Assembly: GCF_029504655.1 (NCBI RefSeq)
Contig: NZ_JAQFIL010000001.1
Location: forward strand, 5,089,001 to 5,153,000
DNA from: Catalinimonas alkaloidigena
GTDB taxonomy: Bacteria > Bacteroidota > Bacteroidia > Cytophagales > Cyclobacteriaceae
Reading direction: 5' to 3'
DNA: 64,000 nt
The translations under genes were made by a program, and so were the position numbers. The notes under the pieces are model-generated. The model was not told the DNA's origin, made no database searches, and worked only from the letters and a program-made list of their open reading frames with translations. Shown piece after piece: positions 18,299 through 33,350 of the stretch; the first letter of the stretch is position 1, and every line of letters begins with the position of its first letter.

Positions 18299-19516
18299 TT
18301 ATGCCTTAGCCAGTGCCTTCTCTATCATTTTTCCCTCTTCTTCGGAAAGGGCTAACTTTTTGGCTGCTCTATGTCCTTCTTCCGACATCTTTTTCCAGGT
18401 CTTGGCTACAATGTCTACAATTTTTTCTTCAGGATGCTGCCTGGCAAAATCCCCAAAATAGTACTGAAGAAACACCAGACAAATCACATCTTCCAGGATT
18501 TGTGTCTCAGGATCACTTTTCAGCTTTTGTTTCTTTAACAGAAAGGCTACGCGCTCAATCGTTTTTTGATCATAGCCATGCGCAGCCATGATTTCACCTG
18601 CTTTTTTAGCGTGAAATATCTTGAGCTGAGTACGCCATTTCAAATAACCTTTTCTGTCCATCGGATATGTGTCTCGAGGAATTTCCCAGCGCCTGATATG
18701 TTGACAGCGGGCAGCCAGTTGTAGTTCTTCTGAGGCATTGGGAAAGAATACTGCCAGGGTATTACTCATCCGCTGTCCGTAGACAAGCTCTTTAGGCACA
18801 TTTCTACCATCCACAATCTCGTGATGAGGATCTTCGGCATTTGCCTGATCGAAAACGGTAATGGTTTTTTCAAAGCGGGCTTTATCTTCAATCGTGTCCC
18901 CGGCTTTCTTTTCTTTCCCCAGCCAGTCAGAAGTGACCTCGTTTAGTTTCTGCACCTTGTATTCAAAATCTCCTTTGAGCTGATCACGTACTTCTTTAAG
19001 ATTGTCCAGGAGTAACTGCACATCATCAGGAATTGCTTCTTCCAGGTACTCCCGAATACGTTTGGTCAAGGTAGGCGACTTGCCATTGCTGGAAACCGCT
19101 ATCTTCAGATCACCTTTTTTCACTACTGAACTCAGGTAAAAATCGCAGAGGTCAGGCGTATCCGCCACATTGGTCATGATATGTTTACGACGGGTCATCT
19201 TCTTGATTTTCTCATGCAGTTTCCGGTCGTTGGTTGCCAGAAATACCAGGTCTTTGTCCCTCAGGTCTTTTCTTTTGAATTTTCTTTCAATAATTTTAAT
19301 ATGAGGATACTTCTTTGCCAGCTTGTAAATGTCTTCTTGCAAAATTTCTTTGCCTACTAAGGTAATATGTGTTTCAGGGCTATTTTTCACCAGAGCCTGA
19401 AGTTTCTCCAAGCCTACATATCCTCCTCCCACCACCAGTACTTCCAGTTCGTGCAGTTTAAAAAATACAGGAAACAAAACGTTCCCTTCCGTTTCTTTCT
19501 TGTTGAGCGCCATGCT
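18299..19516 (-). CDS. Siroheme synthase (precorrin-2 dehydrogenase/ferrochelatase) fused to DUF4202
   Basis: A 405-residue two-part protein. Residues about 10-205 match the N-terminal CysG/Met8 module, which oxidises precorrin-2 with NAD and inserts iron into sirohydrochlorin: the dinucleotide motif VLVVGGGYVGLEK, the catalytic-Asp region NVADTPDLCDFYLS, and KIAVSSNGKSPTLTKRIREY. Residues about 215-405 match DUF4202, a helical family of otherwise separate proteins of about 190 residues: RFEKTITVFDQANAEDPHHE, AARCQHIRRWEIPRDTYP, LKWRTQLKIFHAKKAGEI and LEDVICLVFLQYYFGDF. The fusion is one uninterrupted frame. I use ATG 19516 (MALNKKE); an extension to 19540 would overlap cobA by 17 bp. With cobA it forms the siroheme operon that supplies NirB, encoded divergently. 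Confidence 0.88.
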   Translation of the reverse strand, partial: SMALNKKETEGNVLFPVFFKLHELEVLVVGGGYVGLEKLQALVKNSPETHITLVGKEILQEDIYKLAKKYPHIKIIERKFKRKDLRDKDLVFLATNDRKLHEKIKKMTRRKHIMTNVADTPDLCDFYLSSVVKKGDLKIAVSSNGKSPTLTKRIREYLEEAIPDDVQLLLDNLKEVRDQLKGDFEYKVQKLNEVTSDWLGKEKKAGDTIEDKARFEKTITVFDQANAEDPHHEIVDGRNVPKELVYGQRMSNTLAVFFPNASEELQLAARCQHIRRWEIPRDTYPMDRKGYLKWRTQLKIFHAKKAGEIMAAHGYDQKTIERVAFLLKKQKLKSDPETQILEDVICLVFLQYYFGDFARQHPEEKIVDIVAKTWKKMSEEGHRAAKKLALSEEEGKMIEKALAKA

Positions 19517-19523
19517 TTCAAAA

Positions 19524-20285
19524 TTAGTTTGGATACGCAAGCGAAGTTACACTTTGCCGAATGGATAGCAAGTGTTTTTCAACTACAGCTCCAATCACAA
19601 TGATCGCCGGTGAAGAAATTTGTTTCTCTTCTACCCCGGTCATGATGTTTTTCAGTTTTCCTACCGCTATTTTTTCATTTACACAGGTGCCATTCTGGAT
19701 TACTGCTATCGGTTCTTCCATGCCTCGCTGTTCTCCAAAAAGTTTGATGATATGCCGGAGCCTTTTCTTGCCCATCAGAATTACGATAGTGGCGGACGAC
19801 TGCGCTGCCAGATGTATATCTTCGGAGAGGGTTCCGGCGCGAGTAGTCCCGGTCATCACCCAGAAACTTTCATTGATTCCTCTATGTGTGAGCGGAATAT
19901 TCTGCATAGCCGGCACAGCCATGGCACTACTGATGCCGGGAACAATCTCTACCTCCAGACCATGCTTAAGCGCATACTCTTTTTCCTCCTGCCCTCTTCC
20001 AAATACAAAAGGATCACCTCCTTTGAGGCGTACTACATTTCCATGCCTGCGAGCATAACGTACTATCATACGGTTGATTTCATGCTGCTGTAGGTGATGA
20101 CGTCCTGCTCTTTTTCCCACAAATATTTTCAATGCGTCTTCTTTACAGTATTTGAGCAAAGCGGGATTTGCCAGTGCATCATAGAGGATCACATCCGCGC
20201 TTTCCAGCGCCAATATTCCTTTTAGGGTAATCAGCATCTCATCCCCCGGACCGGCTCCTACCAAAGTGAGTTTTGATTTCAACAT
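19524..20285 (-). CDS. cobA: Uroporphyrinogen-III C-methyltransferase
   Basis: Makes precorrin-2 by two SAM-dependent methylations of uroporphyrinogen III, the entry to siroheme. The 253-residue protein shows all SUMT landmarks: LTLVGAGPGDEMLITLKGI at the start, GKRAGRHHLQQHEIN, VVRLKGGDPFVFGRGQEE, VPGISSAMAVPAMQNIPLTH and ATIVILMGKKRL. It lacks the CysG N-terminal module, which is encoded by the next gene in the operon (7-bp gap). It is divergent from nirB across a 229-bp region with the TTACGTAA tandem sites, so both directions may be co-regulated. Confidence 0.95.
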   Translation of the reverse strand: MLKSKLTLVGAGPGDEMLITLKGILALESADVILYDALANPALLKYCKEDALKIFVGKRAGRHHLQQHEINRMIVRYARRHGNVVRLKGGDPFVFGRGQEEKEYALKHGLEVEIVPGISSAMAVPAMQNIPLTHRGINESFWVMTGTTRAGTLSEDIHLAAQSSATIVILMGKKRLRHIIKLFGEQRGMEEPIAVIQNGTCVNEKIAVGKLKNIMTGVEEKQISSPAIIVIGAVVEKHLLSIRQSVTSLAYPN

Positions 20286-20332: not shown

Positions 20333-20382
20333 CTACGTACCAGTAAAATAATTTTGAAATAAATTTACGTAAATTTACGTAA
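20333..20382. promoter_or_regulatory. Tandem TTACGTAA operator candidate, cobA/nirB intergenic
   Basis: TTACGTAA occurs at 20365-20372 and 20375-20382, direct copies with start-to-start spacing of exactly 10 bp (one helical turn). A second element, CTACGTACCA, lies at 20333-20342. The same two elements recur upstream of the porin gene at 26827 and 26921. The sites lie about 130 bp before nirB and about 80 bp before cobA. They are candidate binding sites of the NarL-like regulator encoded at 25392. Confidence 0.6.
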
Positions 20383-20514
20383 TTAAGAAATTATTTCTTT
20401 ACTTCGTGATTAAAGGCTGGCCAGCTACGAAAAAATACTGCTTCATAGCTTATTTCTATATACCAACGAGATAAGCTTCATGGATTGAATACAAATAGCT
20501 AAATACCGAATGCT

Positions 20515-23013
20515 ATGAAAAAAGTTGTCGTCATAGGAAATGGAATGGTGGGTTACAAATTTTGCGAAAAACTACGTAAAATCGCATCTCCCGAGCATGT
20601 TTCAATTACTGTTTTCGGGGAGGAGCCCCGGCTGGCTTACGATCGTGTTCATCTCAGCGAATACTTCTCGGATAAAAACGCTGATAAGCTCACCCTGGCT
20701 CCACTGGAATGGTACAGAGAAAATCAGATTAAGCTGCACAGCGGAAAACTGATCGCTCACCTGGACAGGACTGCCAAAACTGTAGAAACGCATGACCATC
20801 AGGTTTTTGAATATGATCAGTTGATTATGGCTACCGGATCCAGCCCTTTTGTACCTCCTATTCCGGGAACAGACAAAAAGGGGGTGTTCGTATACCGTAC
20901 CATAGAAGATCTGGATGCCATCATCTCTTATGGCAGCAAAGTAAAAAGCGCAGCCGTTCTCGGAGGAGGCTTACTGGGGCTGGAAGCTGCCAAAGCCATG
21001 CTTGATCTGGGGCTGAAAACCCATGTAGTGGAATTTGCCTCCCGCCTTATGCCTCGTCAACTGGATGAAGCAGCTTCCAAAGCATTACAAACCAGTATTG
21101 AAAGCCTGGGAATACAAATACACCTCAACAAAAGCACTCGCGAAATTGCCGGAAACGGAAAGCTGGATGGCTTATATTTTGCTGACAATACACAACTGGA
21201 TGTAGATATGCTGGTAATCTCAGCGGGAATACGTCCTCGTGATGAGCTTGCCCACCTAAGTGATCTGGAGGTTGGTCCGCGTGGTGGCATCGTGACCAAT
21301 GAATTTATGCAGACTTCCGATCCCGATATCTACGCTATTGGTGAAGCTGCCCTTTACCAGAATATGATTTATGGCTTGGTAGCTCCCGGTTATGATATGG
21401 CTGAAGTAGCTGCCCAACATATCCTGGGCAGAGAGGAAAAAACTTTTATGGGTAGCGATATGTCTACCAAACTCAAACTCATTGGGGTAGACGTAGCCAG
21501 CTTTGGCGATCCTTTCTGTGAAAATCAAGCCCACTACCCTATCGTATTTGAGCATAAGTCCAAAGGAATTTATAAAAGAATTAACCTCTCCCCGGACGGA
21601 AAACTGCTGCTGGGAGGCATACTTGTAGGGGATGCGGAAGCTTACAACATGTTATTGCAAACCATGCAAAATGGACTGAGCCTTCCTCCTGATCCTGAAG
21701 ACCTGATTTTAGGAGCCAGAGGAGGGGAAGGCTCTGTAGGACAAGGTGTGGAAAATCTACCTGAGCAGGCTCAAATCTGCTCTTGCGAAGGCATTACCAA
21801 AGGCGCGATATGTCAGTCAATTACTGAGGGAAATCTGAACTCGGTGCAAGAGGTGAAATCCTGTACCAAGGCAGGAACAGGTTGCGGAGGCTGTATGCCC
21901 ATGGTGACTGACCTTTTTCACCATACGCTGAAAAGTATGGGCAAGCGGGTCAAGAAGACGCTATGCGAGCATTTTGACTATTCCCGTCAGGAGCTTTTTG
22001 ACCTGGTAAAAATCAACGCAATAAAAAGCTACGACGAACTGCTTGACAAATATGGCAAAGGAGATGGCTGTGAAATCTGTAAGCCAGCAGTGGCTTCTAT
22101 ACTCGCCAGCATCTGGAATGAACTGATCACCGAACAAGATACCATACAGGATACAAACGATCGCTTTCTGGCCAATATCCAGAAAGGAGGCACTTACTCT
22201 GTAGTTCCTCGTGTTCCCGGCGGTGAAATTACTCCTGACAAACTCATCGTGATCGGACAGGTCGCCAAGAAATATGATTTGTATACCAAAATTACCGGCG
22301 GTCAGCGCATTGACTTGTTTGGTGCGCACTTGCATCAACTTCCTGATATCTGGGAAGAATTAATTGAAGCTGGTTTTGAAAGCGGACATGCTTATGGAAA
22401 ATCACTACGTACTGTGAAAAGCTGTGTAGGTTCTTCCTGGTGCCGCTATGGTTTGCATGACTCTGTATCTTTTGCGCTGGAAATAGAAAACCGTTACAAA
22501 GGATTGCGCTCACCTCACAAACTCAAAAGCGCGGTCTCCGGCTGTATCCGTGAATGTGCTGAAGCACAAAGCAAAGACTTTGGCATTATCGCTACCGAAA
22601 AAGGCTGGAATCTCTTCGTCTGTGGAAATGGTGGAGCCAAGCCGCAGCATGCCCAGCTCCTGGCCTCAGACCTGGATAATGAAAGCTGCATCCGTTACAT
22701 AGACCGTTTTCTCATGTTTTACATCAAAACGGCAGAGCCACTTACACGCACCTCTACCTGGCTCAACAAGTTGGAAGGGGGAATGGAATACCTGAAAGAT
22801 GTGGTGGTCAATGACTGTCTGGGCATAGGGGCTCAGCTGGAGGAAGATATGAAGCGTACGCTGAATGTATACAAATGCGAGTGGAAAGAAGTGGTCAATA
22901 ATCCTGAGCTTAGGGCTAAGTTTACACACTTTATCAATTCAGATGAACCTGACGAAAGTATACGCTTTGAACGTCGCAGGGAACAAAAAGTACCTGCCGA
23001 ATGGGGCAAATAA
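20515..23013 (+). CDS. nirB: Assimilatory nitrite reductase [NAD(P)H] large subunit
   Basis: Cytoplasmic enzyme reducing nitrite to ammonium with six electrons from NAD(P)H. The 832-residue protein has an FAD/NAD oxidoreductase domain (VVVIGNGMVGYKFCEKL at the start, AVLGGGLLGLEAAKAML near 145), two BFD-type [2Fe-2S] segments (CSCEGITKGAICQS with GCGGCMP, about 422-465, and GCEICKPAV near 520), the ferredoxin-like half-domain, and the siroheme/[4Fe-4S] domain with CVGSSWCRYG (about 638) and SGCIRECAEAQ (about 680) supplying the cluster cysteines. Length and order are standard for NirB. nirD follows 51 bp downstream. TTACGTAA sites lie upstream. Confidence 0.97.
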   Translation: MKKVVVIGNGMVGYKFCEKLRKIASPEHVSITVFGEEPRLAYDRVHLSEYFSDKNADKLTLAPLEWYRENQIKLHSGKLIAHLDRTAKTVETHDHQVFEYDQLIMATGSSPFVPPIPGTDKKGVFVYRTIEDLDAIISYGSKVKSAAVLGGGLLGLEAAKAMLDLGLKTHVVEFASRLMPRQLDEAASKALQTSIESLGIQIHLNKSTREIAGNGKLDGLYFADNTQLDVDMLVISAGIRPRDELAHLSDLEVGPRGGIVTNEFMQTSDPDIYAIGEAALYQNMIYGLVAPGYDMAEVAAQHILGREEKTFMGSDMSTKLKLIGVDVASFGDPFCENQAHYPIVFEHKSKGIYKRINLSPDGKLLLGGILVGDAEAYNMLLQTMQNGLSLPPDPEDLILGARGGEGSVGQGVENLPEQAQICSCEGITKGAICQSITEGNLNSVQEVKSCTKAGTGCGGCMPMVTDLFHHTLKSMGKRVKKTLCEHFDYSRQELFDLVKINAIKSYDELLDKYGKGDGCEICKPAVASILASIWNELITEQDTIQDTNDRFLANIQKGGTYSVVPRVPGGEITPDKLIVIGQVAKKYDLYTKITGGQRIDLFGAHLHQLPDIWEELIEAGFESGHAYGKSLRTVKSCVGSSWCRYGLHDSVSFALEIENRYKGLRSPHKLKSAVSGCIRECAEAQSKDFGIIATEKGWNLFVCGNGGAKPQHAQLLASDLDNESCIRYIDRFLMFYIKTAEPLTRTSTWLNKLEGGMEYLKDVVVNDCLGIGAQLEEDMKRTLNVYKCEWKEVVNNPELRAKFTHFINSDEPDESIRFERRREQKVPAEWGK

Positions 23014-23064
23014 GCCCATTTACCCCCTCAGTTCATTTTATCCACTGATCTATAAACATTACTT

Positions 23065-23439
23065 ATGATATCTACAGAAGCATATAAAACAGTAAATGAA
23101 GAAGCAGTCACTACCTGGTTCAAAGCTGCTCCGGTAAATGCTTTTCCCAGCAATGGTGGAACCTGTGTGCAGTACAAGGGAAAACAAATTGCCGTATTCA
23201 ATTTTAGCCGTCGCAACGAGTGGTATGCCTGCCAGAACCTCTGCCCTCATAAAATGCAGATGATTTTATCTCGAGGCTTGATAGGCACGCATCAGGAGGA
23301 ACCTAAGGTAGCCTGTCCTTTTCATAAAAAATCATTTTCTCTGAAAACAGGAGAATGCATTAACGGTGATGAATGTAGCCTCGCCACCTATCCGGTTAAA
23401 ATAAAAGATGAGCACGTATATATAGGTTTTAAGGAATAA
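23065..23439 (+). CDS. nirD: Nitrite reductase small subunit (Rieske-type)
   Basis: A 124-residue partner of NirB with a Rieske-like fold. The cluster-ligand positions are CPH (in CQNLCPHKMQM, about residue 62) and CPFH (about 91), so both Cys-x-His and Cys-x-x-His pairs are kept; many NirD proteins have lost them, so this one may hold a [2Fe-2S] centre. ATG start at 23065. It is the last gene of the nirBD transcript, followed by a hairpin terminator at 23474. Confidence 0.93.
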   Translation: MISTEAYKTVNEEAVTTWFKAAPVNAFPSNGGTCVQYKGKQIAVFNFSRRNEWYACQNLCPHKMQMILSRGLIGTHQEEPKVACPFHKKSFSLKTGECINGDECSLATYPVKIKDEHVYIGFKE

Positions 23440-23473
23440 GGCCGTATCCACTAAATATGATGAACAACGAAAA

Positions 23474-23502
23474 TTCCGGGGTAACAAACTCCGGCTTTTT
23501 TA
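23474..23502 (+). terminator. Intrinsic terminator after nirD
   Basis: CCGGGG (23476-23481) and CTCCGG (23489-23494) form a 6-bp stem with one G-T pair, followed by CTTTTTTATTT. Confidence 0.7.
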
Positions 23503-23529
23503 TTTATGTTGACTAAAACATTAAGTATC

Positions 23530-23562
23530 CAAAGTAATATTACGTAAATTCTTATAGTTTTT
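23530..23562 (+). promoter_or_regulatory. TTACGTAA site and promoter-like element before the sensor kinase
   Basis: One exact TTACGTAA at 23540-23547, with an imperfect copy (CAAAGTAA) at 23530-23537, again 10 bp apart. TTATAGTTTT follows at 23552-23561 and resembles the Bacteroidota -7 element TAnnTTTG; the same TTATAGTTTT string stands before the porin gene. The kinase start codon is at 23576. This suggests the two-component operon is autoregulated. Confidence 0.5.
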
Positions 23563-23575
23563 ATTTATTTAGAGC

Positions 23576-25417
23576 ATGCAAAAGCAGCGGGAGAGAAAAC
23601 ATGGCTTTGAACGCCTGGGTATGATGTATGCACTGGCTTTGTCCGGCATAGCAGCGGCTATAATCATCAGTCAGATCTTTGTGCAGCGCTACATCGGCAG
23701 ACAGGAATATGATTCCAGAATTGTAAACCTGGCAGGCCGTCAGCGTATGCTGAGTCAGAAGATCAGTAAAATTGCTCTACAGATTGGTGCAACTGAAAAT
23801 ACTGGACAACGCCAAGTTTATGCTAATGAGTTGGAAAAAGCTCTTGACCTGTGGACGCAATCATACCATGGTTTGCTTGAAGGAGACAAGAGCCTGGGGG
23901 TTATCGGTAATAACAGCGTTACGGTAGATTCAATGTATCAGGCCATTACCCCCGATTATAAAGCCATCGTAAATAACAGTCAGGACATCCTCCGCCTGAT
24001 CTCCCAACATCCAGCTATTGACTCAACCCGGCTCCAACCCCACATCAAGCAGATACTCACCCATGAGTCAGCGTTTTTGACAGGCATGGATACCATCGTT
24101 TTTCAGTATGATCATGAAGCCAGAGAAAGAGTAATTCAGCTGGAAATTATTGAACTGGGTCTGTTAGGACTTTCTTTGTCCATTATATTCTTTGAATTAT
24201 TTTTCATTTTTCGTCCTACCGCCCGAAGGATCAAAAAGACGATTGGCGAACTGCTAAGGTCGGAGAAACTGGCCAACGATATGTCGCGTGAGATTGGTGC
24301 TTTATACAGTTCACTGGAGCGCTCCTATCAGGAACTGGCTAAAGTAGATGTAAAGGAAGATTTACCAAAAGTATTTGCGAAAACCAAACCTTCGGGAATG
24401 TTCACCTACATATCCGATGATTTTTTAGAGATTTTAGGAGATACCCAGGAAGCCTCGCATAGTAATATTTTTGCCTGGCTGGAATATGAAGGCTACCCCT
24501 ACGATCAGGTACAGAATATCCACCAGATCGTGATGCAAGGAGAACCCTGGTATGGCGAAGTAAAAGGAACTTCCGAAGAAGGAGACTTCATCTGGCTGGA
24601 CATGACCATTGTCCCTACTTTTAATCGCAAACAGCAGATAGAGTCGCTCAACATCATTTGCTCTGATAAAACCGAAAGGAAAGAAGCGGAAGCTCGCTCT
24701 CATGAAATCATCAAAGACAAGATTGAGAGCGAGCTGAAAGAACAAAGAGTACGCTCTATTCTGATACTGGAAGGGCAGGAAGAAGAGAGAAGACGTATTT
24801 CGCGAGACATCCACGATGGGATTGGGCAGCAGCTTACCGCCCTTAAGTTTACTATCGAGAATATTAACCTGGAGCCTAATATGCCTACCCGGGAGGAAAA
24901 AGTAAGAGAAGCTCAGAAGATGCTCAACCAGGTAATTCGGGAAGTACGCAGGGTATCTTTCAATCTCAACCCCAGTGCCCTCAGTGACTACGGATTGGTA
25001 CCGGTTACTCGCCGGTTCTGCGCAGAAGCCAGCCGTTTATCGGACAAAACCGTTATTTTTGAGAACAAGACCGGTTTTCTGAACCGTATGGATAAAAGCG
25101 TAGAAACCAATCTCTACCGTATCATACAGGAAGCGGTCAATAACGCGATTAAGTACTCTAAATCTGATGAGATCAGGGTAGAGTTTAGCCACAAAGCACA
25201 TTATTTAAATGTTGATATCATTGATAACGGAGTAGGTTTTGATTTTCAGAATTACCGGAAAAGAGAAAGCAAAGATGGAACAGGCCTGGGAATCTTGAAT
25301 ATGCAGGAAAGAACTTATTATATTAACGGCACCTTTGAATTAAGCTCAGAACCAGGAAAAGGTACCCGGATCAACATACATTTACCCATCAATGGAAGAG
25401 ACAAGAGAAACCATTAA
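23576..25417 (+). CDS. NarX-like membrane sensor histidine kinase
   Basis: A 613-residue kinase of the NarX/HPK7 type. TM1 (about 15-35) is followed by a periplasmic PilJ/NarX-type domain whose first helix reads VNLAGRQRMLSQKISKIALQ, the counterpart of the nitrate-binding P-box. TM2 lies at about 190-213. A PAS domain (about 260-370) precedes HisKA_3 with RDIHDGIGQQLTALK (phospho-His about 413) and the ATPase domain (NLYRIIQEAVNNAIKYSK, DNGVGFD, GTGLGILNMQER). Ligand nitrate or nitrite is inferred from the P-box and from position among nitrate genes. The response regulator gene overlaps its end by 26 bp. A TTACGTAA site lies 28 bp upstream. Confidence 0.9.
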   Translation: MQKQRERKHGFERLGMMYALALSGIAAAIIISQIFVQRYIGRQEYDSRIVNLAGRQRMLSQKISKIALQIGATENTGQRQVYANELEKALDLWTQSYHGLLEGDKSLGVIGNNSVTVDSMYQAITPDYKAIVNNSQDILRLISQHPAIDSTRLQPHIKQILTHESAFLTGMDTIVFQYDHEARERVIQLEIIELGLLGLSLSIIFFELFFIFRPTARRIKKTIGELLRSEKLANDMSREIGALYSSLERSYQELAKVDVKEDLPKVFAKTKPSGMFTYISDDFLEILGDTQEASHSNIFAWLEYEGYPYDQVQNIHQIVMQGEPWYGEVKGTSEEGDFIWLDMTIVPTFNRKQQIESLNIICSDKTERKEAEARSHEIIKDKIESELKEQRVRSILILEGQEEERRRISRDIHDGIGQQLTALKFTIENINLEPNMPTREEKVREAQKMLNQVIREVRRVSFNLNPSALSDYGLVPVTRRFCAEASRLSDKTVIFENKTGFLNRMDKSVETNLYRIIQEAVNNAIKYSKSDEIRVEFSHKAHYLNVDIIDNGVGFDFQNYRKRESKDGTGLGILNMQERTYYINGTFELSSEPGKGTRINIHLPINGRDKRNH

Positions 25418-26090
25418 AGCAACCTTAGCCGACGATCATGGCGTAGTAAGAAGCGGCATCAAATCATTGTTAGAAAGTGAAGGAGACATTGAAGTCATCT
25501 CTGAAGCAGAAAACGGGCAGGAAGCATTTAAGCAAGTAAAGCAACTGTCACCCGATCTGGCCATACTGGATGTGCGCATGCCTGAAATGACCGGGCTGGA
25601 AGTAGCAAGAATGATTAAAAAGTCGGGTTTCACTACCAAAATACTCATCCTCTCCATGCACGATGATGAAGACTACATCTTGCAGGCGGTAGAAAGTGGC
25701 GCTTCCGGTTACCTGCTCAAAGGCTCCAGCAAAGAAGAGTTTTTGAAAGCAGTCCGGACGGTACACAGAGGGGAAAAGTATTTCAGTGCAGATGTTTCCA
25801 GAATTTTTATTGATAGCTATCTGAATACCAAAAACCCCAAAGCATCGGCTCCACAATCCACTGTTGTGAACTATGAGCTTACCAAGCGTGAGAAGCAAAT
25901 ACTGACGATGCTTGTAGATGGCATTGGAAACAAAGAAATAGCCGAAAGGTTAAATAAAAGCATACGTACTATTGAGACTCATCGCTTTAATATTATGAAG
26001 AAGTTGGGGGTCAGCAATGTAGTTGAGTTGTTAAAAAAAGTAGAAGATGACAAAGGACTTAAAGATTTTCTTGCCCAAACCGAAGGTTGA
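25392..26090 (+). CDS. NarL-like response regulator (REC plus LuxR-type HTH)
   Basis: A 232-residue DNA-binding regulator. The receiver domain has acidic DD at 14-15, the phospho-acceptor Asp60 in LAILDVRMPEMTG, and the switch Lys in GYLLKGSS. After a linker, a LuxR/GerE helix-turn-helix spans about 165-225 (ELTKREKQILTMLVDGIGNK, IRTIETHRFNIMKKLGV). It overlaps the kinase gene by 26 bp and is surely its partner. It is the natural candidate to bind the TTACGTAA repeats found before nirB, before its own operon and before the porin gene; that is inference. mobA overlaps or follows directly. Confidence 0.93.
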   Translation: MEETRETIKATLADDHGVVRSGIKSLLESEGDIEVISEAENGQEAFKQVKQLSPDLAILDVRMPEMTGLEVARMIKKSGFTTKILILSMHDDEDYILQAVESGASGYLLKGSSKEEFLKAVRTVHRGEKYFSADVSRIFIDSYLNTKNPKASAPQSTVVNYELTKREKQILTMLVDGIGNKEIAERLNKSIRTIETHRFNIMKKLGVSNVVELLKKVEDDKGLKDFLAQTEG

Positions 26091-26104
26091 ATAAACTTAT
26101 TGAG

Positions 26105-26722
26105 ATGCTTATGGATAAGGCTCCAGACAATATGATCGCAGTAATTTTAAGTGGCGGACAAAGTCGCCGTATGGGACAGGATAAGGGCTTGATCCAAGAG
26201 AACGGCCTGGCCTGGACGGAATCACTGCAACAAAAACTGGAGAAGGTTGGCCTAAAGACCTATGTATCTATCAACAATCTGCAAAAAGACGCTTATGTAA
26301 ATGTTTTCTCCGACCTAACTCTAATTCTTGACCATCCTTCTTCTGCTCACCTCAACGGCCCTGTCAAAGGCATACTCTCCGCTCATTTGACATTTCCCGA
26401 AAAAGACATTCTTTTCCTTCCCTGCGACATGCCTGCTTTGGCTGGTGATACTTTTTTGTGGTGGGCCAATGAATTTGCAAAGTTAAATCAGGAAGATAAA
26501 GTAGTCGTATGCAGTACCCCGGATTATTTACAACCCCTTTGTGGTGTATATAGCCAAGCTTCTCTAAAAATACTCATGCAATACTATGAAGACGAAAAGC
26601 TTCAGGACCAGAGCATGCACAATATAGTTGAGGAGATGCTGAAAGCCACTGTGATCAGTATTCCATCTGAGCTTTTACCTCAGTTTAAGAATTTTAATAT
26701 ACCCGACGACTTGCAGTCCTAG
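26105..26722 (+). CDS. mobA: Molybdenum cofactor guanylyltransferase
   Basis: Attaches GMP to molybdopterin to form the guanine dinucleotide cofactor that NasA-type reductases need. The nucleotide-binding signature VILSGGQSRRMGQDKG lies at the N-terminus, followed by ILDHPSSAHLNGPVKGILSA, LFLPCDMPAL (metal-binding Asp) and a PLCGVYSQ segment typical of MobA. Start is uncertain: ATG at 26105, 26111 or 26132 are all possible, and a TTG at 26087 would overlap the regulator stop. Position at the end of the sensor-regulator operon ties cofactor supply to nitrate control. Confidence 0.88.
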   Translation: MLMDKAPDNMIAVILSGGQSRRMGQDKGLIQENGLAWTESLQQKLEKVGLKTYVSINNLQKDAYVNVFSDLTLILDHPSSAHLNGPVKGILSAHLTFPEKDILFLPCDMPALAGDTFLWWANEFAKLNQEDKVVVCSTPDYLQPLCGVYSQASLKILMQYYEDEKLQDQSMHNIVEEMLKATVISIPSELLPQFKNFNIPDDLQS

Positions 26723-27025
26723 TTACTCTCACCTCCTCTTTCCAATTTTCCCAGTGTAGGAATAAACGTCTGTGTATTTCCTGATAGAATTGTTACTTCT
26801 CAGAACTTCAGTTCAGAAATAAAAAACTACGTACCATACTTAAAAACACCTCTTTTCCAAGACCTATCAGCAGATTACTAAGTAATTATTCTGTTAATTA
26901 TTATTTTTTCAAAATAAAATTTACGTAATATTACGTAAAAACATTTTTTATTTATAGTTTTGGAATGTCAGACGAGTTGCATAAGCCCGGAAGACGCTTG
27001 CTTTGACTACTTAAACTTCAAAAAC
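26723..27025. other. Intergenic region before the nitrate uptake genes
   Basis: About 300 bp without a gene. It holds the CTACGTACCA and TTACGTAA elements and a promoter-like TAGTTTTG described separately. A TTG-started reading from 26960 would add 22 non-family residues to the porin and is rejected. Confidence 0.6.
26827..26962 (+). promoter_or_regulatory. Tandem TTACGTAA operator candidate and -7 element before porin/narK
   Basis: TTACGTAA at 26921-26928 and 26931-26938, spaced exactly 10 bp as before nirB. CTACGTACCA lies at 26827-26836. TAGTTTTG at 26955-26962 matches the Bacteroidota -7 consensus TAnnTTTG, 16 bp after the second site. The arrangement suggests activator sites just upstream of the promoter for the porin, transporter and nitrate reductase genes. 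Confidence 0.6.
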
Positions 27026-28309
27026 ATGCGTTTAACATTTACAAAAACCTTATGTCTGCTGCTGCTCCAGCTGAGCTCAATCAAAGAAGTATATGCTCAA
27101 TTTTCTATAGGAGGTGAAATCCGCCCCCGGGCTGAATTCAGAGATGGCTTCAAGACCATCAACACCGAAGCACAGGAAGCCGCATTCTTTATAGAACAGC
27201 GCTCCCGCCTGTATGTAGGTTATCAGCAGGAGAAACTCGGATTTCAGTTTAGCCTTCAGGATGTACGCATCTGGGGAAATACCGACCAGATCTACAAAGA
27301 AGATCCGGCACTTACCAATGTGTATGAAGCCTGGGGAGAGTATAAGTTTACCCCTCAAACTTCTATTCGGGTGGGACGCCAGGCACTGGATTATGATAAT
27401 GCTCGTTTTCTGGGCAATCTGGACTGGGCACAGCAAGGCCGCAGCCACGATGCGGTAAAATTTATATACCAGGACAGTAGCGGCTTTACCTTTCATGCAG
27501 GGGCAGGCTTCAATCAAAATATATCCTTTGAGCCGGGAGAACTGTCTTCTACATATTACGAAGATGTAAATAATTATAAAACCATGCAGTACATCTGGCT
27601 ACATAAAGACTGGGCTACTGCTAAGGCATCTTTACTGATTTTTAACGATGGCCGTCAACAGGCAGATTCAACTACTGCATTTCGCCAGACTTACGGGTTC
27701 ATAGGTGACAAAAATTTAGGAAAAGTGAAGCTAGAGGGTGAACTCTACTATCAGGGAGGGGAAGATCCATCAGGTAGAAATGTAAGCGCCTGGCTGGCTG
27801 CTGTAAATGTAAACTTCAATACCAGATATACCCCGCTGACCATCGGTACAGACTATCTCTCAGGCACCAATCCCACAGATGGTAATAACCATTCATTTAA
27901 TCCGCTTTATGGTACCAACCATAAGTTTTATGGGTTTATGGACTATTTCTATGTGGGCAATAATCACGGGCTAAATGGTCAGACTTCAGGACTACTGGAC
28001 TTTTATGTCAAGTCAAAATTTAAGCTCGGTAATAAATCCGCTTTGATCGCTCATGTACATCATTTCAGTTCCCCAACGACTATTTATGCGGCCGAGGGAA
28101 ATGGAGAAGAACTATCAGCACAATTAGGTGAAGAAATTGACCTGGTGTACAATCTGAACCTTACACCCGATGTCAATTTTAAACTAGGCTATTCGCAGCT
28201 ATTCTCTACTCAATCGCTGGAAGCGATCAAAGGCGGAGCCGAACGAAAAGGCCTTAACCAATGGGTCTGGGCAATGCTTGCCATCAAACCTATATTCTAT
28301 TCTAAGTAA
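27026..28309 (+). CDS. Alginate-export (AlgE-like) family outer-membrane porin
   Basis: A 427-residue beta-barrel from ATG 27026, with signal peptide ending at KEVYAQ. The alginate_exp-type N-terminal strands read FSIGGEIRPRAEFRDGF, FFIEQRSRLYVGYQ and FQFSLQDVRIWGNTDQI, and RVGRQALDYDNARFLGNLDW is also typical. AlgE exports alginate, but this broad family also includes general and small-solute channels, and no alginate genes are nearby. Position directly before narK (32-bp gap), behind the shared operator, points to a nitrate/nitrite porin; that is inference. The C-terminus ends IKPIFYSK rather than in an aromatic residue. Confidence 0.82.
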   Translation: MRLTFTKTLCLLLLQLSSIKEVYAQFSIGGEIRPRAEFRDGFKTINTEAQEAAFFIEQRSRLYVGYQQEKLGFQFSLQDVRIWGNTDQIYKEDPALTNVYEAWGEYKFTPQTSIRVGRQALDYDNARFLGNLDWAQQGRSHDAVKFIYQDSSGFTFHAGAGFNQNISFEPGELSSTYYEDVNNYKTMQYIWLHKDWATAKASLLIFNDGRQQADSTTAFRQTYGFIGDKNLGKVKLEGELYYQGGEDPSGRNVSAWLAAVNVNFNTRYTPLTIGTDYLSGTNPTDGNNHSFNPLYGTNHKFYGFMDYFYVGNNHGLNGQTSGLLDFYVKSKFKLGNKSALIAHVHHFSSPTTIYAAEGNGEELSAQLGEEIDLVYNLNLTPDVNFKLGYSQLFSTQSLEAIKGGAERKGLNQWVWAMLAIKPIFYSK

Positions 28310-28341
28310 AAATTCGTAGAAACCATACTTAAATTAGTATT

Positions 28342-29733
28342 ATGAAAACTACTTCTAAGAAACCTGCTGTTTCTAAAAAGACAACTTCATTCAAAGCGAC
28401 ATCTATCAAATTATTCAGCCTCAATACAGTGCATATGCGCGCTTTCCATTTGTCGTGGTTCGCATTCTTTCTCTGCTTCTTTGGCTGGTTTGGCATCGCG
28501 CCCCTGATGGCGGTGGTGCGCGAAGAGTTAGACCTTAGCAAATCTCAGATCGGAAATATCATCATCTCTTCAGTGGCTATCACCGTATTTGCAAGGCTTG
28601 CCATCGGCTGGCTATGCGACAAAATCGGCCCCCGAATCACCTATACTTATCTGATGATACTCGGGTCTATTCCGGTGATGCTGATCGGACTAAGCAACAG
28701 CTATGAATCTTTCCTTATGTTCAGATTAGCCATTGGCGTAATCGGTGCGTCCTTTGTGATCACCCAGTACCATACTTCCATGATGTTTGCCCCCAATGTG
28801 GTAGGTACAGCCAATGCTACTACTGCTGGCTGGGGTAATATGGGTGGAGGCGTAACCCAGATGGTAATGCCGCTGATCTTTGCAGCCTTCGTTGGGCTTG
28901 GCTTTCTGGATACCGATGCCTGGAGATATGCAATGGTAGTGCCTGGTATCGCCCTTATCATTTGCGGTATCTTGTATTATAAGTATACCACTGACTTGCC
29001 TGAAGGTAATCTGAAAGACCTCAAGAAAAGTGACCCTGACTTTCACCTCAAGAGCAAAGAGAGCAAAGGAGCATTCAAAACTGCGCTTAAAGATTATCGT
29101 GTCTGGGCATTATTTGTGATCTATGGTGCATGCTTTGGCGTAGAGCTTACCATCAACAATATTGCTGCGATTTACTATCACGATTACTTTAGCCTGGACC
29201 TGAAAACCGCAGGACTTATCGCCGGACTTTTTGGCCTGATGAATATCTTCGCCCGTTCTCTGGGTGGATTTTTTGGCGATAAAGCCGGTATCAGGTGGGG
29301 GCTTAAAGGGCGGGTTGCATTCTTAGGTATAGCCCTATTGGTAGAAGGAGCTGCGCTGATCCTTTTTTCTCAAATGAGCGTACTTCCTCTCGCCATCATC
29401 ACCATGATTATATTCAGCCTGTTCGTACAAATGTCTGAAGGTGCCACTTACTCCGTTGTTCCTTTTGTCAACAAAAAGGCAGTAGGCGCTATCTCTGGTA
29501 TCGTAGGCGCAGGCGGTAACGCCGGAGCTGTGGCTGCGGGCTTCCTTTTCAAATCTGAAAGCCTGACTTATCCTGAAGCTCTGCTGATCATGGGTATCAT
29601 CGTAGCCTGTGTATCATCTCTGACGCTTGCGGTACGTTTCTCTGCTGTGGCTGAAAAAGAAGCCAAAGAGGAAATGGATACTGCACTGGCTGACAAAAAA
29701 GGAAAGCTGGTACTCGAGCCCGCCTTAGCTTAA
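28342..29733 (+). CDS. narK: NarK/NrtP-type nitrate/nitrite transporter (MFS)
   Basis: A 463-residue inner-membrane MFS protein with about 12 helices. Both nitrate signatures of the NNP family are visible: AGWGNMGGGVTQMVMP near residue 155 and GAGGNAGAVAAGFLF near 392, together with RLAIGWLCDKIGPR after TM2. A soluble, Lys/Thr-rich N-terminus of about 25 residues precedes TM1. It imports nitrate, or exchanges nitrate and nitrite, for the reductase encoded next. A hairpin at 29747 stands between it and the reductase gene, so the latter may be expressed at a lower level by read-through. Confidence 0.93.
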   Translation: MKTTSKKPAVSKKTTSFKATSIKLFSLNTVHMRAFHLSWFAFFLCFFGWFGIAPLMAVVREELDLSKSQIGNIIISSVAITVFARLAIGWLCDKIGPRITYTYLMILGSIPVMLIGLSNSYESFLMFRLAIGVIGASFVITQYHTSMMFAPNVVGTANATTAGWGNMGGGVTQMVMPLIFAAFVGLGFLDTDAWRYAMVVPGIALIICGILYYKYTTDLPEGNLKDLKKSDPDFHLKSKESKGAFKTALKDYRVWALFVIYGACFGVELTINNIAAIYYHDYFSLDLKTAGLIAGLFGLMNIFARSLGGFFGDKAGIRWGLKGRVAFLGIALLVEGAALILFSQMSVLPLAIITMIIFSLFVQMSEGATYSVVPFVNKKAVGAISGIVGAGGNAGAVAAGFLFKSESLTYPEALLIMGIIVACVSSLTLAVRFSAVAEKEAKEEMDTALADKKGKLVLEPALA

Positions 29734-29780: not shown

Positions 29781-29834
29781 TTCCCTTTATAAGTTCATCA
29801 TATCAATATCTTTTTGTCACTAAACTTCAAATGT

Positions 29835-32800
29835 ATGACAAATCAACCCAGCAGCTTTCGTTCTACCTGCTCTTACTGCGGAGTTGGTTGTGGAATTATT
29901 GTGAACAAAGACCGTCAGGGAAAAGTAAGCGTCAAAGGTGATCCTGATCATCCTGTGAATAAGGGAATGCTTTGCTCCAAGGGGATGAACCTGAATTATG
30001 TGGTGGAGGAAAGGAACGACCGCCTCCTGCATCCGCAAATGCGATGGAGTCGTGCCGCGCCTATGCAAAAGGTCAGCTGGGATACCGCACTGGACAGGGC
30101 AGCTGCTGTCTTTAAATCATTGATCCAAAACTACGGCCCAGACTCCATAGGTTTTTACGTTTCCGGGCAATGCCTCACCGAAGAATACTATCTGGTGAAT
30201 AAGCTCACCAAAGGTTTTCTGGGCACTAATAATATTGATACCAATTCCCGCCTCTGCATGAGTTCAGCTGTGGCAGGCTATGTCAAAACACTGGGAGAAG
30301 ATTCCGTCCCTATCTGTTATGATGATATTGAGCAGGCAGATTGCTTCTTCATTGCCGGAGCCAATCCTGCCTGGTGCCATCCTATCCTCTTTCGTCGCAT
30401 AGAAAAGCACAAAGAGCAAAATCCTGATGCTAAAATCATCGTCGTAGACCCTCGCAAAACCCAGAGCTGTGCTTTGGCTGATCTGCATCTGCAAATTCGT
30501 CCGGGTACCGATGCCGTCCTCTATCACGCAATTGGAAGATGTCTGATAGAACAGGGGGATATTGACCTGAGTTTTATCAAGGGGCATACCGATGGTTTTG
30601 AGACTTACCGCAAAGAAGTGATGCAAAAATCTTTGCAGGAAGCTGCTGCAACCTGCGATATTTCTATAGATGATATACTATTGGCTGCCAAGTACATCGG
30701 CAATGCCAAAGGTTTTCTTACTTTCTGGGCAATGGGGCTTAACCAAAGTGCCTCCGGCGTCAATAAAAACCTGGCCCTGATTAACCTCAACCTGATCACC
30801 GGACATATCGGAAAACCTGGCTCGGGACCATTTTCACTTACCGGGCAACCCAACGCCATGGGAGGTAGAGAAGTAGGGGGCATGGCCAGTCTGCTGGCAG
30901 CGCATAAAAACTTACTCGATGCCAATGACAGGCAGGAAGTTGCTGACTTCTGGGGCGTAGATAGCATTGCCGCTCAGCCCGGCCTCACGGCTACCCAAAT
31001 GTTTGATGCTCTTCGGGAAGGTAAAATGAAAGCCGTTTGGATCATCTGTACCAACCCATTAGTTAGTCTGCCTGATGCCCGTAAAATAGAAGAAGCATTA
31101 GAAAATGCCGCTTTCGTAGTGGTACAGGACATTTCTAATCGTTCTGATACTGTAGCCTATGCTGACCTGCTGCTCCCTGCCGCGGGATGGCTGGAGAAAG
31201 AAGGCACTATGACCAATTCGGAACGAAGAATCAGCTACCTGGAAAAAGCGATTGCCCCCCCCGGAGAAGCCTTGCCTGATGCGGAAATACTGTGCCGTTT
31301 TGCGAGAAAAATGGGTTTCCGTGGCTTTGATTATTCCTCTATGGCTGAGGTATATGCCGAACATTGCGCACTCACCAAAGGTACCAACATTGATATTTCC
31401 GGTTTGAGCTACGAAGTGCTGAAGGAAAAGGGCAGTATGCAATGGCCGGTTCCACAAAAAGGTCATTCGGGAACAGAAAGGTTGTTTGAAGACAAGAAGT
31501 TTTATACGCCTAACCAGCGTGCGCAGATACAAAGCAGTGGTGCCGCAAATGCCTCGGAGCCACTTACGCCTGACTTTCCTTTGGTGCTGACCACCGGACG
31601 TGTCCGTGATCAGTGGCACACTATGACACGTACCGGAAAAGTACAAAAGCTCAGGAAACATATCAGCCAGCCCTTTCTGGAGATTCACCCTTCAGACGCG
31701 TTGATTAGAGATATTCGCGAAGATGATGTGGTGTTGATAAGCAATGCCAGAGGAGAGGTAAAAGTGAAGGCAAAAATTACCGAAAACATCAAAAAAGGAG
31801 TGGTTTTTCTGCCGATGCACTGGGGCAAAATACTGCAAAAAGATTTTGGAAGAGCCAATAACCTCACCAACAATCTTTACGACCCTGTTTCCAAAGAGCC
31901 TGACTTCAAGTTCTCGGCGGTACAGGTAGAAAAAATAAGCAAAACCAGGCAGAAAATTATTATTGTAGGAGCAGGCGCAGCCGCCTATCGCTTTATCAAT
32001 ACCTATCGGGAGCTAAATGAAGAAGATGAAATACATGTCTTTTCCAAAGAAGAGCATCCTTTTTATAACCGGGTGCTTCTGCCCGAATACATCAACGAAA
32101 GCCTGGGCTGGCACGATCTGATGAAGTTCAAAACAGAAGAGGAGTTTGATCAACTGCATGTTCACCTGCACCCTTCCAATGCTATCTGCATGATTGACCG
32201 TGAGTACAAAACAGTAACCGATGCGCATGGACAAAAGCACCCTTACGACCTACTGGTGATGGCTACAGGTAGCCGTGCCTTTGTACCTGGCGATGTACCC
32301 ATGCATTACCCGGGAATCTTTACCATGCGCAGCCGAGAAAACGCCGATAAGCTCAAATATTACCTGCCCGAAGAAGCTCATGTGAGTATCGTAGGTGGAG
32401 GGCTTTTAGGTTTAGAACTGGCGGCCTCACTACTGGAAATGAATGTAAAGGTGACCATCATCCAGTTGGCTTCCCGCCTGATGGAAAGACAATTGGATTA
32501 CACTGCCAGTAATCTGCTACGAGAGAAAGTGGAAGAAATGGGCATACAGCTACAGATGAATGACCAGGTACAACTGATTGAACAGCATAAAGCCCGGGAA
32601 CCTATTCTGGTAAGGCTTAAAAGTGGAAAGTCATTGCATTGCCATGCGGTAGTTTATGCTATTGGTACCCGTCCTAATATTGAGATCGCCCGCGATGCAC
32701 ATCTGGCTTGTGGCAGAGGCGTAAAAGTCAACGACTACCTACAAACCTCTGACCCAAATATTTTTGCGCTGGGCGAAATTGCTGAACATCGCGAGAAGAT

Positions 32801-33350
32801 GCTGGGCATTACTGCTGCTGCTGAACAGCAGGCTGATATGGCTGCTCGCTTCATTGCCGGAGACCCGCTGAGCATGTACCAGGGCTCAGTACCTATGAAT
32901 ATTCTCAAGTTTTCACACTTGGATTTATGTTCTATTGGCATTCCGGACATACCGCATAAGCACCGGCACGAGTATGAAGAAATATTCTTTCTGGATAAGT
33001 CTAAAGCTTATTACAAAAAGTGCATCATCCACAAGGACCGGCTGGTAGGTGCTATCCTGATGGGTGATAAGTCTGAGTTTGCGGAGTTCAAAAGCCTGAT
33101 TGAAGAACAGACAGAACTGGGCGACATGCGGGAAAAACTGCTCCGGAGTGGTGGCGCTTCAAGGCCAGTAAAAGGAAAGCTCGTCTGCTCCTGCGGAAAT
33201 GTGGGGAAAGGTAATATTACCGAAGCGATTAACCAGGGTTGCCATGAGCTGAGACTGCTCTGCGAAGCTACGGGTGCCGGACTGGGCTGTGGTAGCTGCA
33301 AACCTGAACTCAAATCCCTGATTGATGACGAATTAACCGTTAACGTGTAG
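29835..33350 (+). CDS. nasA: Assimilatory nitrate reductase fused to NirB-like flavin domain and BFD cluster
   Basis: A 1171-residue cytoplasmic molybdoenzyme reducing nitrate to nitrite. Residues 1-690 are the NasA-type catalytic part: the [4Fe-4S] ligands C12, C15, C19 and C47 (CSYCGVGCG, GMLCSKGM), WAMGLNQSASG, GRVRDQWHTMTRTGK near the cofactor-binding end and FLPMHWG. A NirB-like FAD/NAD oxidoreductase module follows from about 706 (KIIIVGAGAAAYRF, SIVGGGLLGLELAASL, VYAIGTRPN), and a BFD [2Fe-2S] domain ends the protein (CSCGNVGKG about 1117, LGCGSCKPEL). In Klebsiella NasA has only the BFD and a separate NasC carries the flavin; here both are in one chain, so it could take electrons straight from NAD(P)H. 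Start ATG 29835; a TTG at 29814 is less likely. Confidence 0.93.
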   Translation: MTNQPSSFRSTCSYCGVGCGIIVNKDRQGKVSVKGDPDHPVNKGMLCSKGMNLNYVVEERNDRLLHPQMRWSRAAPMQKVSWDTALDRAAAVFKSLIQNYGPDSIGFYVSGQCLTEEYYLVNKLTKGFLGTNNIDTNSRLCMSSAVAGYVKTLGEDSVPICYDDIEQADCFFIAGANPAWCHPILFRRIEKHKEQNPDAKIIVVDPRKTQSCALADLHLQIRPGTDAVLYHAIGRCLIEQGDIDLSFIKGHTDGFETYRKEVMQKSLQEAAATCDISIDDILLAAKYIGNAKGFLTFWAMGLNQSASGVNKNLALINLNLITGHIGKPGSGPFSLTGQPNAMGGREVGGMASLLAAHKNLLDANDRQEVADFWGVDSIAAQPGLTATQMFDALREGKMKAVWIICTNPLVSLPDARKIEEALENAAFVVVQDISNRSDTVAYADLLLPAAGWLEKEGTMTNSERRISYLEKAIAPPGEALPDAEILCRFARKMGFRGFDYSSMAEVYAEHCALTKGTNIDISGLSYEVLKEKGSMQWPVPQKGHSGTERLFEDKKFYTPNQRAQIQSSGAANASEPLTPDFPLVLTTGRVRDQWHTMTRTGKVQKLRKHISQPFLEIHPSDALIRDIREDDVVLISNARGEVKVKAKITENIKKGVVFLPMHWGKILQKDFGRANNLTNNLYDPVSKEPDFKFSAVQVEKISKTRQKIIIVGAGAAAYRFINTYRELNEEDEIHVFSKEEHPFYNRVLLPEYINESLGWHDLMKFKTEEEFDQLHVHLHPSNAICMIDREYKTVTDAHGQKHPYDLLVMATGSRAFVPGDVPMHYPGIFTMRSRENADKLKYYLPEEAHVSIVGGGLLGLELAASLLEMNVKVTIIQLASRLMERQLDYTASNLLREKVEEMGIQLQMNDQVQLIEQHKAREPILVRLKSGKSLHCHAVVYAIGTRPNIEIARDAHLACGRGVKVNDYLQTSDPNIFALGEIAEHREKMLGITAAAEQQADMAARFIAGDPLSMYQGSVPMNILKFSHLDLCSIGIPDIPHKHRHEYEEIFFLDKSKAYYKKCIIHKDRLVGAILMGDKSEFAEFKSLIEEQTELGDMREKLLRSGGASRPVKGKLVCSCGNVGKGNITEAINQGCHELRLLCEATGAGLGCGSCKPELKSLIDDELTVNV

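Follow-up and report, generated by a model that had tools for sequence, protein, structure and literature searches.

Introduction

Two described systems stand closest to the one considered here: NarX-NarL/NarQ-NarP of Escherichia coli and FixJ of rhizobia. We compare them with a nitrate-assimilation locus of Catalinimonas alkaloidigena, order Cytophagales. The locus lies in a stretch of 64,000 nucleotides (contig NZ_JAQFIL010000001.1, C1:5089001-5153000), hereafter the window. Palindromic sites stand there before nitrate genes, and a sensor kinase and a response regulator are encoded between them. A preliminary description had read the sites as tandem 8-bp palindromes with a binding code distinct from that of NarL. 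It took them to mark a nitrate/nitrite-assimilation regulon, bound by the NarL-like regulator encoded at 25392.

The E. coli pairs share with the window system a periplasmic sensor with a nitrate motif, a HisKA_3 kinase and a NarL-family regulator. Likewise, both go with a 16-bp dyad of two half-sites and with control of nir/nar-type genes, which for the window system is predicted. However, the window kinase differs from NarX and NarQ: it has no HAMP or GAF-like match in Pfam at E 0.001, and a PAS-like domain instead. NarL recognizes the heptamer TACYNMT in 7-2-7 dyads, and contacts bases through K188, V189 and K192. The half-site is TAMGTA in our locus, and the target set is assimilatory.

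FixJ answers an oxygen sensor, a haem-PAS partner kinase, and acts on fixK and nifA. It resembles the window regulator in the half-site TAMGTA and in the helix (TVEVHRAN in FixJ, TIETHRFN in the window). In the part of PMC4999443 used here, its sites are given as GTAMGTAG (from SELEX) and TAAGTAATTTCCCTTA (at fixK, with TAAGTA). Natural FixJ sites are less symmetric, whereas the window sites are clean dyads at nitrate genes.

Nitrate/nitrite-sensing kinases of Bacteroidetes lack HAMP and GAF-like domains, and their nitrate motif is G-x-x-R within AINxAGSLRM, according to sections of a review (PMC8199190). Those sections are concerned with the sensors and their genomic surroundings; DNA sites and the specificity of regulators are outside their subject. 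Among the types described there, the window kinase matches the one with a PAS domain, which clusters with Indibacter alkaliphilus. A locus of that species (L244) belongs to class A, defined below. Two sister-class kinases match the type without PAS, which clusters with Thermoflexibacter ruber. PMC1274295, in the part used, treats NarP in proteobacteria. Among the open-access matches listed, judged by title and abstract opening, no description of the present operator appeared, which is a weak negative. The listed matches for the 8-mer were mostly eukaryotic bZIP and primer uses.

Results and discussion

Sites in the window and in the genome

The two-component system encoded between the doublets of the window very probably uses them as its operators. 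Judged by sequence, the system resembles NarXL in sensor logic and site geometry, and FixJ in half-site and helix. The palindrome TTACGTAA occurs five times in the 64 kb (20365, 20375, 23540, 26921 and 26931), as previously described. Dinucleotide shuffles of the window gave a mean of 0.62 copies and a maximum of 3, and five were reached in 0 of 100. One-mismatch copies are at chance level (25, with 22.7 expected).

The genome was scanned over 7,923,645 bases in 3 contigs. It holds 92 copies of the 8-mer and 226 of the reversed control. Consequently, the single 8-mer is not specific by itself, and we ruled it out as the regulatory unit. The preliminary description had named equal frequency at unrelated promoters as an argument against a regulon. 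That argument touches the 8-mer, but not the 10-bp doublet TACGTAANNTTACGTA. The 7.9-Mb genome contains two copies of the doublet, each in the window and before a nitrate operon: nirBD/cobA and porin-narK-nasA. The pattern TAMGTANNNNTACKTA has 3 matches in the genome (9 for the reversed control). Two are the window sites, and the third lies at C1:6766614 (L179).

The site of region 2 (23531-23546) has 2 mismatches to TACGTAANNTTACGTA and 1 to the family consensus TAMGTA-N4-TACKTA. Sites with at most one mismatch to this consensus are common in the source genome (73 counted, 167 in the reversed control), so region 2 rests on its position, the congener and near relatives. The congener keeps AAGTA-N4-TACGTA before the kinase. 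Catalimonadaceae JC749 and Anditalea (L229, L304) have exact sites upstream of the kinase gene, at distances of 35 and 38 bp. Autoregulation in this branch is therefore supported; most other loci have no site before the kinase.

Sites 1 and 3 are kept in the congener as exact dyads. Their half-sites stay while flanks and centre diverged, which argues against chance or structural palindromes, such as terminators or shared ancestry of intergenic DNA. Some relatives do offer a precedent for this explanation: three exact matches (L033-L035, position 1501) lie in stems that resemble terminators, GCCTTACGTAA..TTACGTAAGGC followed by a run of T (on the other strand in L035). Stems of this kind, containing the 16-mer, are a trap for pattern-only scans. 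However, the window sites have no terminator-like stem. With the shuffle and coding counts given below, we consider this explanation practically negligible.

Association of the site with one regulator class

Of 390 genomes of the order searched, nirB was found in 148, and its surroundings (up to 20 kb) were analysed for 100 of these. The initial class A comprised the 29 loci with a near full-length kinase relative (at least 560 residues aligned) and the regulator. An unsupervised palindromic motif search in their 350-bp nirB upstreams returned nTAMGTAWWWWTACKTAn, with a log-likelihood ratio of 254 (29 after shuffling). It scores well in 28 of the 29, the exception being L164.

The exact pattern TAMGTA-N4-TACKTA occurs 66 times in 27 of the 29 class A loci. 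It occurs 6 times in 6 of the 39 loci with the other type of kinase, and 5 times in 5 of the 32 loci with neither. Its reversed control gave 0, 1 and 0 sites, respectively, and altered spacings of 2, 3, 5 and 6 gave 5, 1, 7 and 7 in class A loci. Counting the class A loci and five exceptions together, 71 sites are intergenic (92 kb) and 0 coding (569 kb), where chance would favour equal density. Of the 34 loci finally counted as class A, 32 have an exact site no more than 400 bp from nirB; among the 66 remaining loci, 3 do (Fisher p 2e-20). Dinucleotide shuffles of the 34 class A upstreams lead one to expect about 0.03 exact sites; 32 were found. The three positive loci outside class A (L085, L091, L156) belong to class B1; their TAAGTA dyads satisfy both patterns.

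All five site-bearing loci without a nearby regulator belong to family f16. In these genomes, the site forecast an unseen regulator: one with an ExHR helix was found about 10-30 kb off or on another contig in 5 of 5, a test limited by distant ExHR regulators of unrelated setting in some f16 genomes. The other 27 genomes without a regulator near nirB comprise 7 with a DNHR-type regulator and 20 with none at E 1e-50.

Gene neighbourhood alone would permit another nitrogen or redox regulator, of Crp/Fnr type or unlinked, to own the sites, the linked two-component system being incidental. In L038 and L039, an exact doublet does adjoin a gene of Crp-like appearance (judged by eye). Nevertheless, within f16 the exact site tracks the regulator class (9 of 9 class A loci, 0 of 4 others), and it does so even with the regulator elsewhere in the genome (the 5 of 5 above). 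The half-site also changes with the regulator helix. Ownership by another regulator is thus very improbable. The product of the 25392 gene, which had been proposed as the binder, is the best candidate, because the presence of the site follows the class of regulator from genome to genome. The claim that the sites mark a nitrate/nitrite-assimilation regulon is supported.

As held-out material, we used 20 further loci, 14 outside the order and 6 inside. Nine have a class A kinase and/or regulator (L207 and L210 counted on the kinase alone): 7 show an exact site, one has 1 mismatch and one 2. Among the nine without kinase or regulator, the exact site was found in none, and one has it with 1 mismatch. 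The remaining 2 show neither gene but stand on cut contigs or stretches, and both have exact sites.

A second set came from a regulator search of named genomes. It gave 80 loci, some of them from Catalimonadaceae, Cyclobacterium, Echinicola, Algoriphagus, Reichenbachiella, Flammeovirga, Chryseolinea, Parapedobacter and Olivibacter; 67 of the 80 are new by the script's test. This set has no class B controls, since it was drawn with the class A regulator. In the new loci, with the start in view, an exact site precedes nirB in 46 of 51, narK in 10 of 14 (23-79 bp upstream), nasA in 6 of 21 and the porin gene in 5 of 15. nasA is often inside an operon. Intergenic DNA of these loci (162 kb) holds 124 sites, and coding DNA (855 kb) holds 1. 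Regulator relatives also occur beside nitrate genes or the kinase in L274, L289 and L301, from records titled Phycisphaeraceae, Rickettsiales and Thalassovita; these are perhaps misbinned metagenome contigs.

The doublet scan of Cytophagales suggested in the preliminary description gave a divided answer. Over 291 genomes of the order, exact TACGTAANNTTACGTA occurs at 26 sites in 19 genomes (10 sites for the reversed control). It stands before nirB in six: the source genome, G268, G130, G180, G193 and G049. The other sites inspected are terminator-like stems or places other than nitrate genes, so the exact 16-mer alone is no proof of regulon membership. In one genus (f19 g50; L037, L040, L041 and L042, position 1501), an exact dyad lies between genes that look aconitase-like and RNA-methyltransferase-like by eye. 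It is a possible further target of the regulator.

Geometry of the site

Two 8-bp palindromes 10 bp apart form one 16-bp inverted repeat, TACGTAA-N2-TTACGTA. This is the 7-2-7 layout of NarL sites, or 6-4-6 when written as TAMGTA-N4-TACKTA. NarL heptamer dyads themselves (TACYNMT-N2-AKNRGTA) have 0 intergenic and 2 coding matches in the 100 loci, and were ruled out as the sites.

The units could instead be independent 8-bp palindromes, each with its own dimer one turn apart, in a tandem rather than dyadic array. The half-site TACGTA is itself palindromic, and in class A direct TAAGTA pairs (6) nearly equal inverted ones (8). Class A also has 11 phased 10-bp triple arrays, such as TAAGTA-N4-TACGTA-N4-TACGTA, and a secondary peak at spacing 14 (22 sites, against 71 at spacing 4). 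However, class B1 has non-palindromic half-sites, and its pairs are 22 inverted, 0 everted and 1 direct, with 22 at spacing 4 and none at 0-3 or 5-11. Moreover, single 8-mers are scattered through the genome, whereas the doublet is confined to two places. Independent units are accordingly improbable, and one 16-bp inverted repeat fits better than the tandem palindromes first described. The phased arrays in relatives preserve part of that description: together with the spacing-14 peak, they suggest additional half-sites at one-turn steps.

Sensor kinase and response regulator

The sensor domain of the kinase matches PF13675 (52 bits). Its sequence NLAGRQRM agrees with NxAGxxRM, a form of the G-x-x-R nitrate motif. 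The PAS-like domain scores 22.5 bits with PAS_9, below the cut-off of 27, and 24.7 bits with TIGR00229, above the cut-off of 22.9. Compared by sequence with the PDB, the sensor gives weak matches to 6gcv (E 0.17), a nitrate-binding chemotaxis transducer, and to PilJ (E 0.19).

The regulator has a receiver domain (PF00072, 100 bits) and a GerE (LuxR-type) helix-turn-helix (PF00196, 65.7 bits), which place it in the NarL/FixJ family. Its best named match is from a Catalimonadaceae bacterium (75% identity). The NCBIfam equivalog for NarL (NF007935) gives 149 bits, below its cut-off of 250. In the helix alignment, RTIETHRFN of the regulator corresponds to STVKVHVKH in NarL and PRTVEVHRAN in FixJ. 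The positions of NarL Lys188, Val189 and Lys192 are thus Glu, Thr and Phe. By the cut-off, the heptamer and these base-reading residues, the protein is not a NarL orthologue. Its half-site TAMGTA and E-x-H-R-x-N helix make the predicted DNA recognition FixJ-type. The code is distinct from the NarL heptamer, as had been proposed. It is not without precedent, given the FixJ half-site and the FixJ-like helix.

Sister classes and the relation of helix to half-site

Regulators near nirB fall into three helix classes: A (ETHR/AEVHR and near variants), B1 (VDNHR/VSNHR) and B2 (VANQR). A first upstream motif for class B was captured by conserved coding sequence, probably cobA, and the search was redone on non-coding stretches. 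When the search was confined to the 5 AEVHR loci or to the 5 f16 loci, it yielded different motifs of low score (too few sequences); exact-pattern counts hold there.

For B1, the motif in non-coding nirB upstreams is WTRAGTAnWWnTACTYAW (ratio 105 versus 29 shuffled), and 16 of 19 loci score well. Of 20 B1 loci, 15 carry an exact TRAGTA-N4-TACTYA, as do 2 of 7 loci whose B1 regulator is distant. Exact copies also turn up in L149 and L162, where no such regulator was found, and 4 of 29 class A loci have one in its TAAGTA form. For B2, the motif is YATAGTTAnWWnTAACTATR (ratio 140 versus 36, 15 loci), with exact TAGTWA dyads in 7 of 15 loci and strict TAGTTA in 5. Eight unused half-sites, taken as controls, gave 0-1 intergenic sites in each class. 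PilJ is present, with no PAS match, in both class B kinases tested as well, so PilJ does not tell the two kinase types apart.

Classes A, B1 and B2 share a predicted 6-4-6 geometry. Sister regulators with other recognition helices seem to use other half-sites in the same geometry. The pairing of ANQR with TAGTTA is tentative, since the motif abuts the likely nirB ATG, all 15 loci come from one family and exact dyads are in 7 of 15. In these 15 f11 loci (L107 to L173), ATAGTTANNNNTAACTATG stands directly before nirB and ends in its likely start codon. This position would suit repression or translational control over activation.

In the regulator tree, rooted at the midpoint, A (100/96) and B2 (100/99) each form one side of a branch, and B1 needs two changes. 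This suggests that DNHR/TRAGTA is ancestral, with the reservation that the root is only a midpoint. A conserved nitrate regulon might then have switched its DNA code two or more times within the order: from a likely ancestral DNHR/SNHR (TRAGTA) to ETHR/EVHR (TAMGTA) in one clade and to ANQR (TAGTTA) in another. The operators would have followed, and the 16-bp dyad and the targets would have been kept. We hold the case for this scenario to be evenly balanced.

The nirB upstreams of 27 genomes without this system show another dyad, nCCCTnnWWWWnnAGGGn (ratio 92 versus 30 shuffled). It occurs mainly in f13, 130-430 bp upstream of nirB (L094, L096, L105, L128, L129, L135, L141 and others).

Proposed mechanism and the evidence against it

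The PilJ-type domain of the kinase, with its nitrate-binding motif, would sense nitrate (or nitrite) outside the membrane. The kinase would phosphorylate the NarL/FixJ-family regulator, as gene order and domains suggest. A dimer of the regulator would bind TAMGTA-N4-TACKTA, consistent with the strict association of site and regulator. Each site would combine a single 16-bp dyad of NarL type with a half-site of FixJ type. The most likely activated genes are nirBD and the divergent cobA/sirohaem genes, porin-narK-nasA, and the system's own kinase-regulator-mobA unit. Activation, rather than repression, is what we infer as the sign of regulation. The -7 box of Bacteroidota has the consensus TAnnTTTG. 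A TAGTTTTG box lies 26 bp from operator 3, and the porin site of the congener is placed likewise.

Several observations weigh against this interpretation. Regarding activation, a TAnnTTWG box lies 25-33 bp from the site centre in 14 of 106 flanks, and some sites are only 20-33 bp from the start codon. The strict TAnnTTTG at 25-33 bp is no commoner than at +7 and +17, so activation from a -33 position is only suggested. The exact site is missing in 2 of 34 class A loci (3 mismatches in L164, 1 in L150) and before 5 of 51 second-set nirB starts. Genome-wide counts of TAMGTA-N4-TACKTA overlap between 24 class A genomes (1-20) and 24 others (0-10), and fail as a class marker. Reversed controls are similar (0-10), and only location separates the classes. 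Besides spacing 4 (71 sites), class A shows other spacings with up to 11 sites (spacing 5) and 22 (spacing 14). TAAGTA dyads fit classes A and B1 alike. Finally, the covariation of helix and site represents few independent events, because A and B2 are single clades.

Features of the locus

Table 1. Genes and predicted sites of the nitrate locus (window coordinates).
Feature	Position	Strand	Basis
Sirohaem-synthase NAD-binding domain fused to DUF4202	18299..19540	-	Pfam PF13241, PF14824, PF13875
cobA, uroporphyrinogen-III C-methyltransferase (sirohaem), divergent from nirB	19524..20285	-	TIGR01469 279.6 bits, cut-off 185
Operator 1 (predicted) TACGTAAATTTACGTA, within TTACGTAAATTTACGTAA (20365-20382), between cobA and nirB	20366..20381	.	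Sequence; conserved in congener
nirB, nitrite reductase large subunit	20515..23013	+	TIGR02374 1083 bits
nirD, nitrite reductase small subunit	23065..23439	+	TIGR02378 112 bits
Operator 2 (weak, predicted) AAAGTAATATTACGTA, centre ~37 bp before kinase ATG	23531..23546	.	1 mismatch to TAMGTA-N4-TACKTA
Sensor histidine kinase: PilJ-type domain (NLAGRQRM), PAS-like, HisKA_3, HATPase	23576..25417	+	Pfam, TIGR00229
NarL/FixJ-family response regulator	25392..26090	+	PF00072 + PF00196
Recognition-helix stretch RTIETHRFN, residues 192-200	25965..25991	+	Alignment with NarL and FixJ
mobA-like Mo-cofactor guanylyltransferase, overlapping regulator gene	26087..26722	+	PF12804; best NCBIfam MobA, below cut-off
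Operator 3 (predicted) TACGTAATATTACGTA, within 26921-26938, before porin-narK-nasA	26922..26937	.	Sequence; conserved in congener
Candidate Bacteroidota -7 box TAGTTTTG, 26 bp downstream of operator 3 centre	26955..26962	+	Sequence
Outer-membrane porin, Alginate_exp family, listed start TTG	26960..28309	+	PF13372
Possible weak site TAAGTAAAAATTCGTA, 1 mismatch, ~31 bp before narK	28303..28318	.	Pattern scan
narK-type nitrate/nitrite transporter	28342..29733	+	TIGR00886 318.8 bits, cut-off 311.7
Assimilatory nitrate reductase (nasA) fused to NirB-like FAD reductase	29814..33350	+	Pfam molybdopterin oxidoreductase, Pyr_redox_2, Fer2_BFD

The listed TTG of the porin gene overlaps the candidate -7 box, and the ATG at 27026 is therefore the likelier start. 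The nasA fusion, including the BFD domain, is a single protein of 1178 amino acids. Fusion to the NAD domain hints that DUF4202 has a function connected with sirohaem or nitrite. A match to an unspecified part of this protein lies directly after nirD in L164, L171, L172, L174 and L177.

Significance

Regulators of the NarL/FixJ type form a very large class, and how their recognition helices read DNA is hard to predict. In the three classes compared here, the regulon, the site length and the spacing are the same. The classes differ at a few residues of the helix and at one or two positions of the half-site, so that few swaps of helix and site would test a code. If the change of codes is real, these regulators would be a natural specificity-switch series for the NarL/FixJ family. 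For nitrate assimilation in Bacteroidota, the dyad provides a concrete predicted operator.

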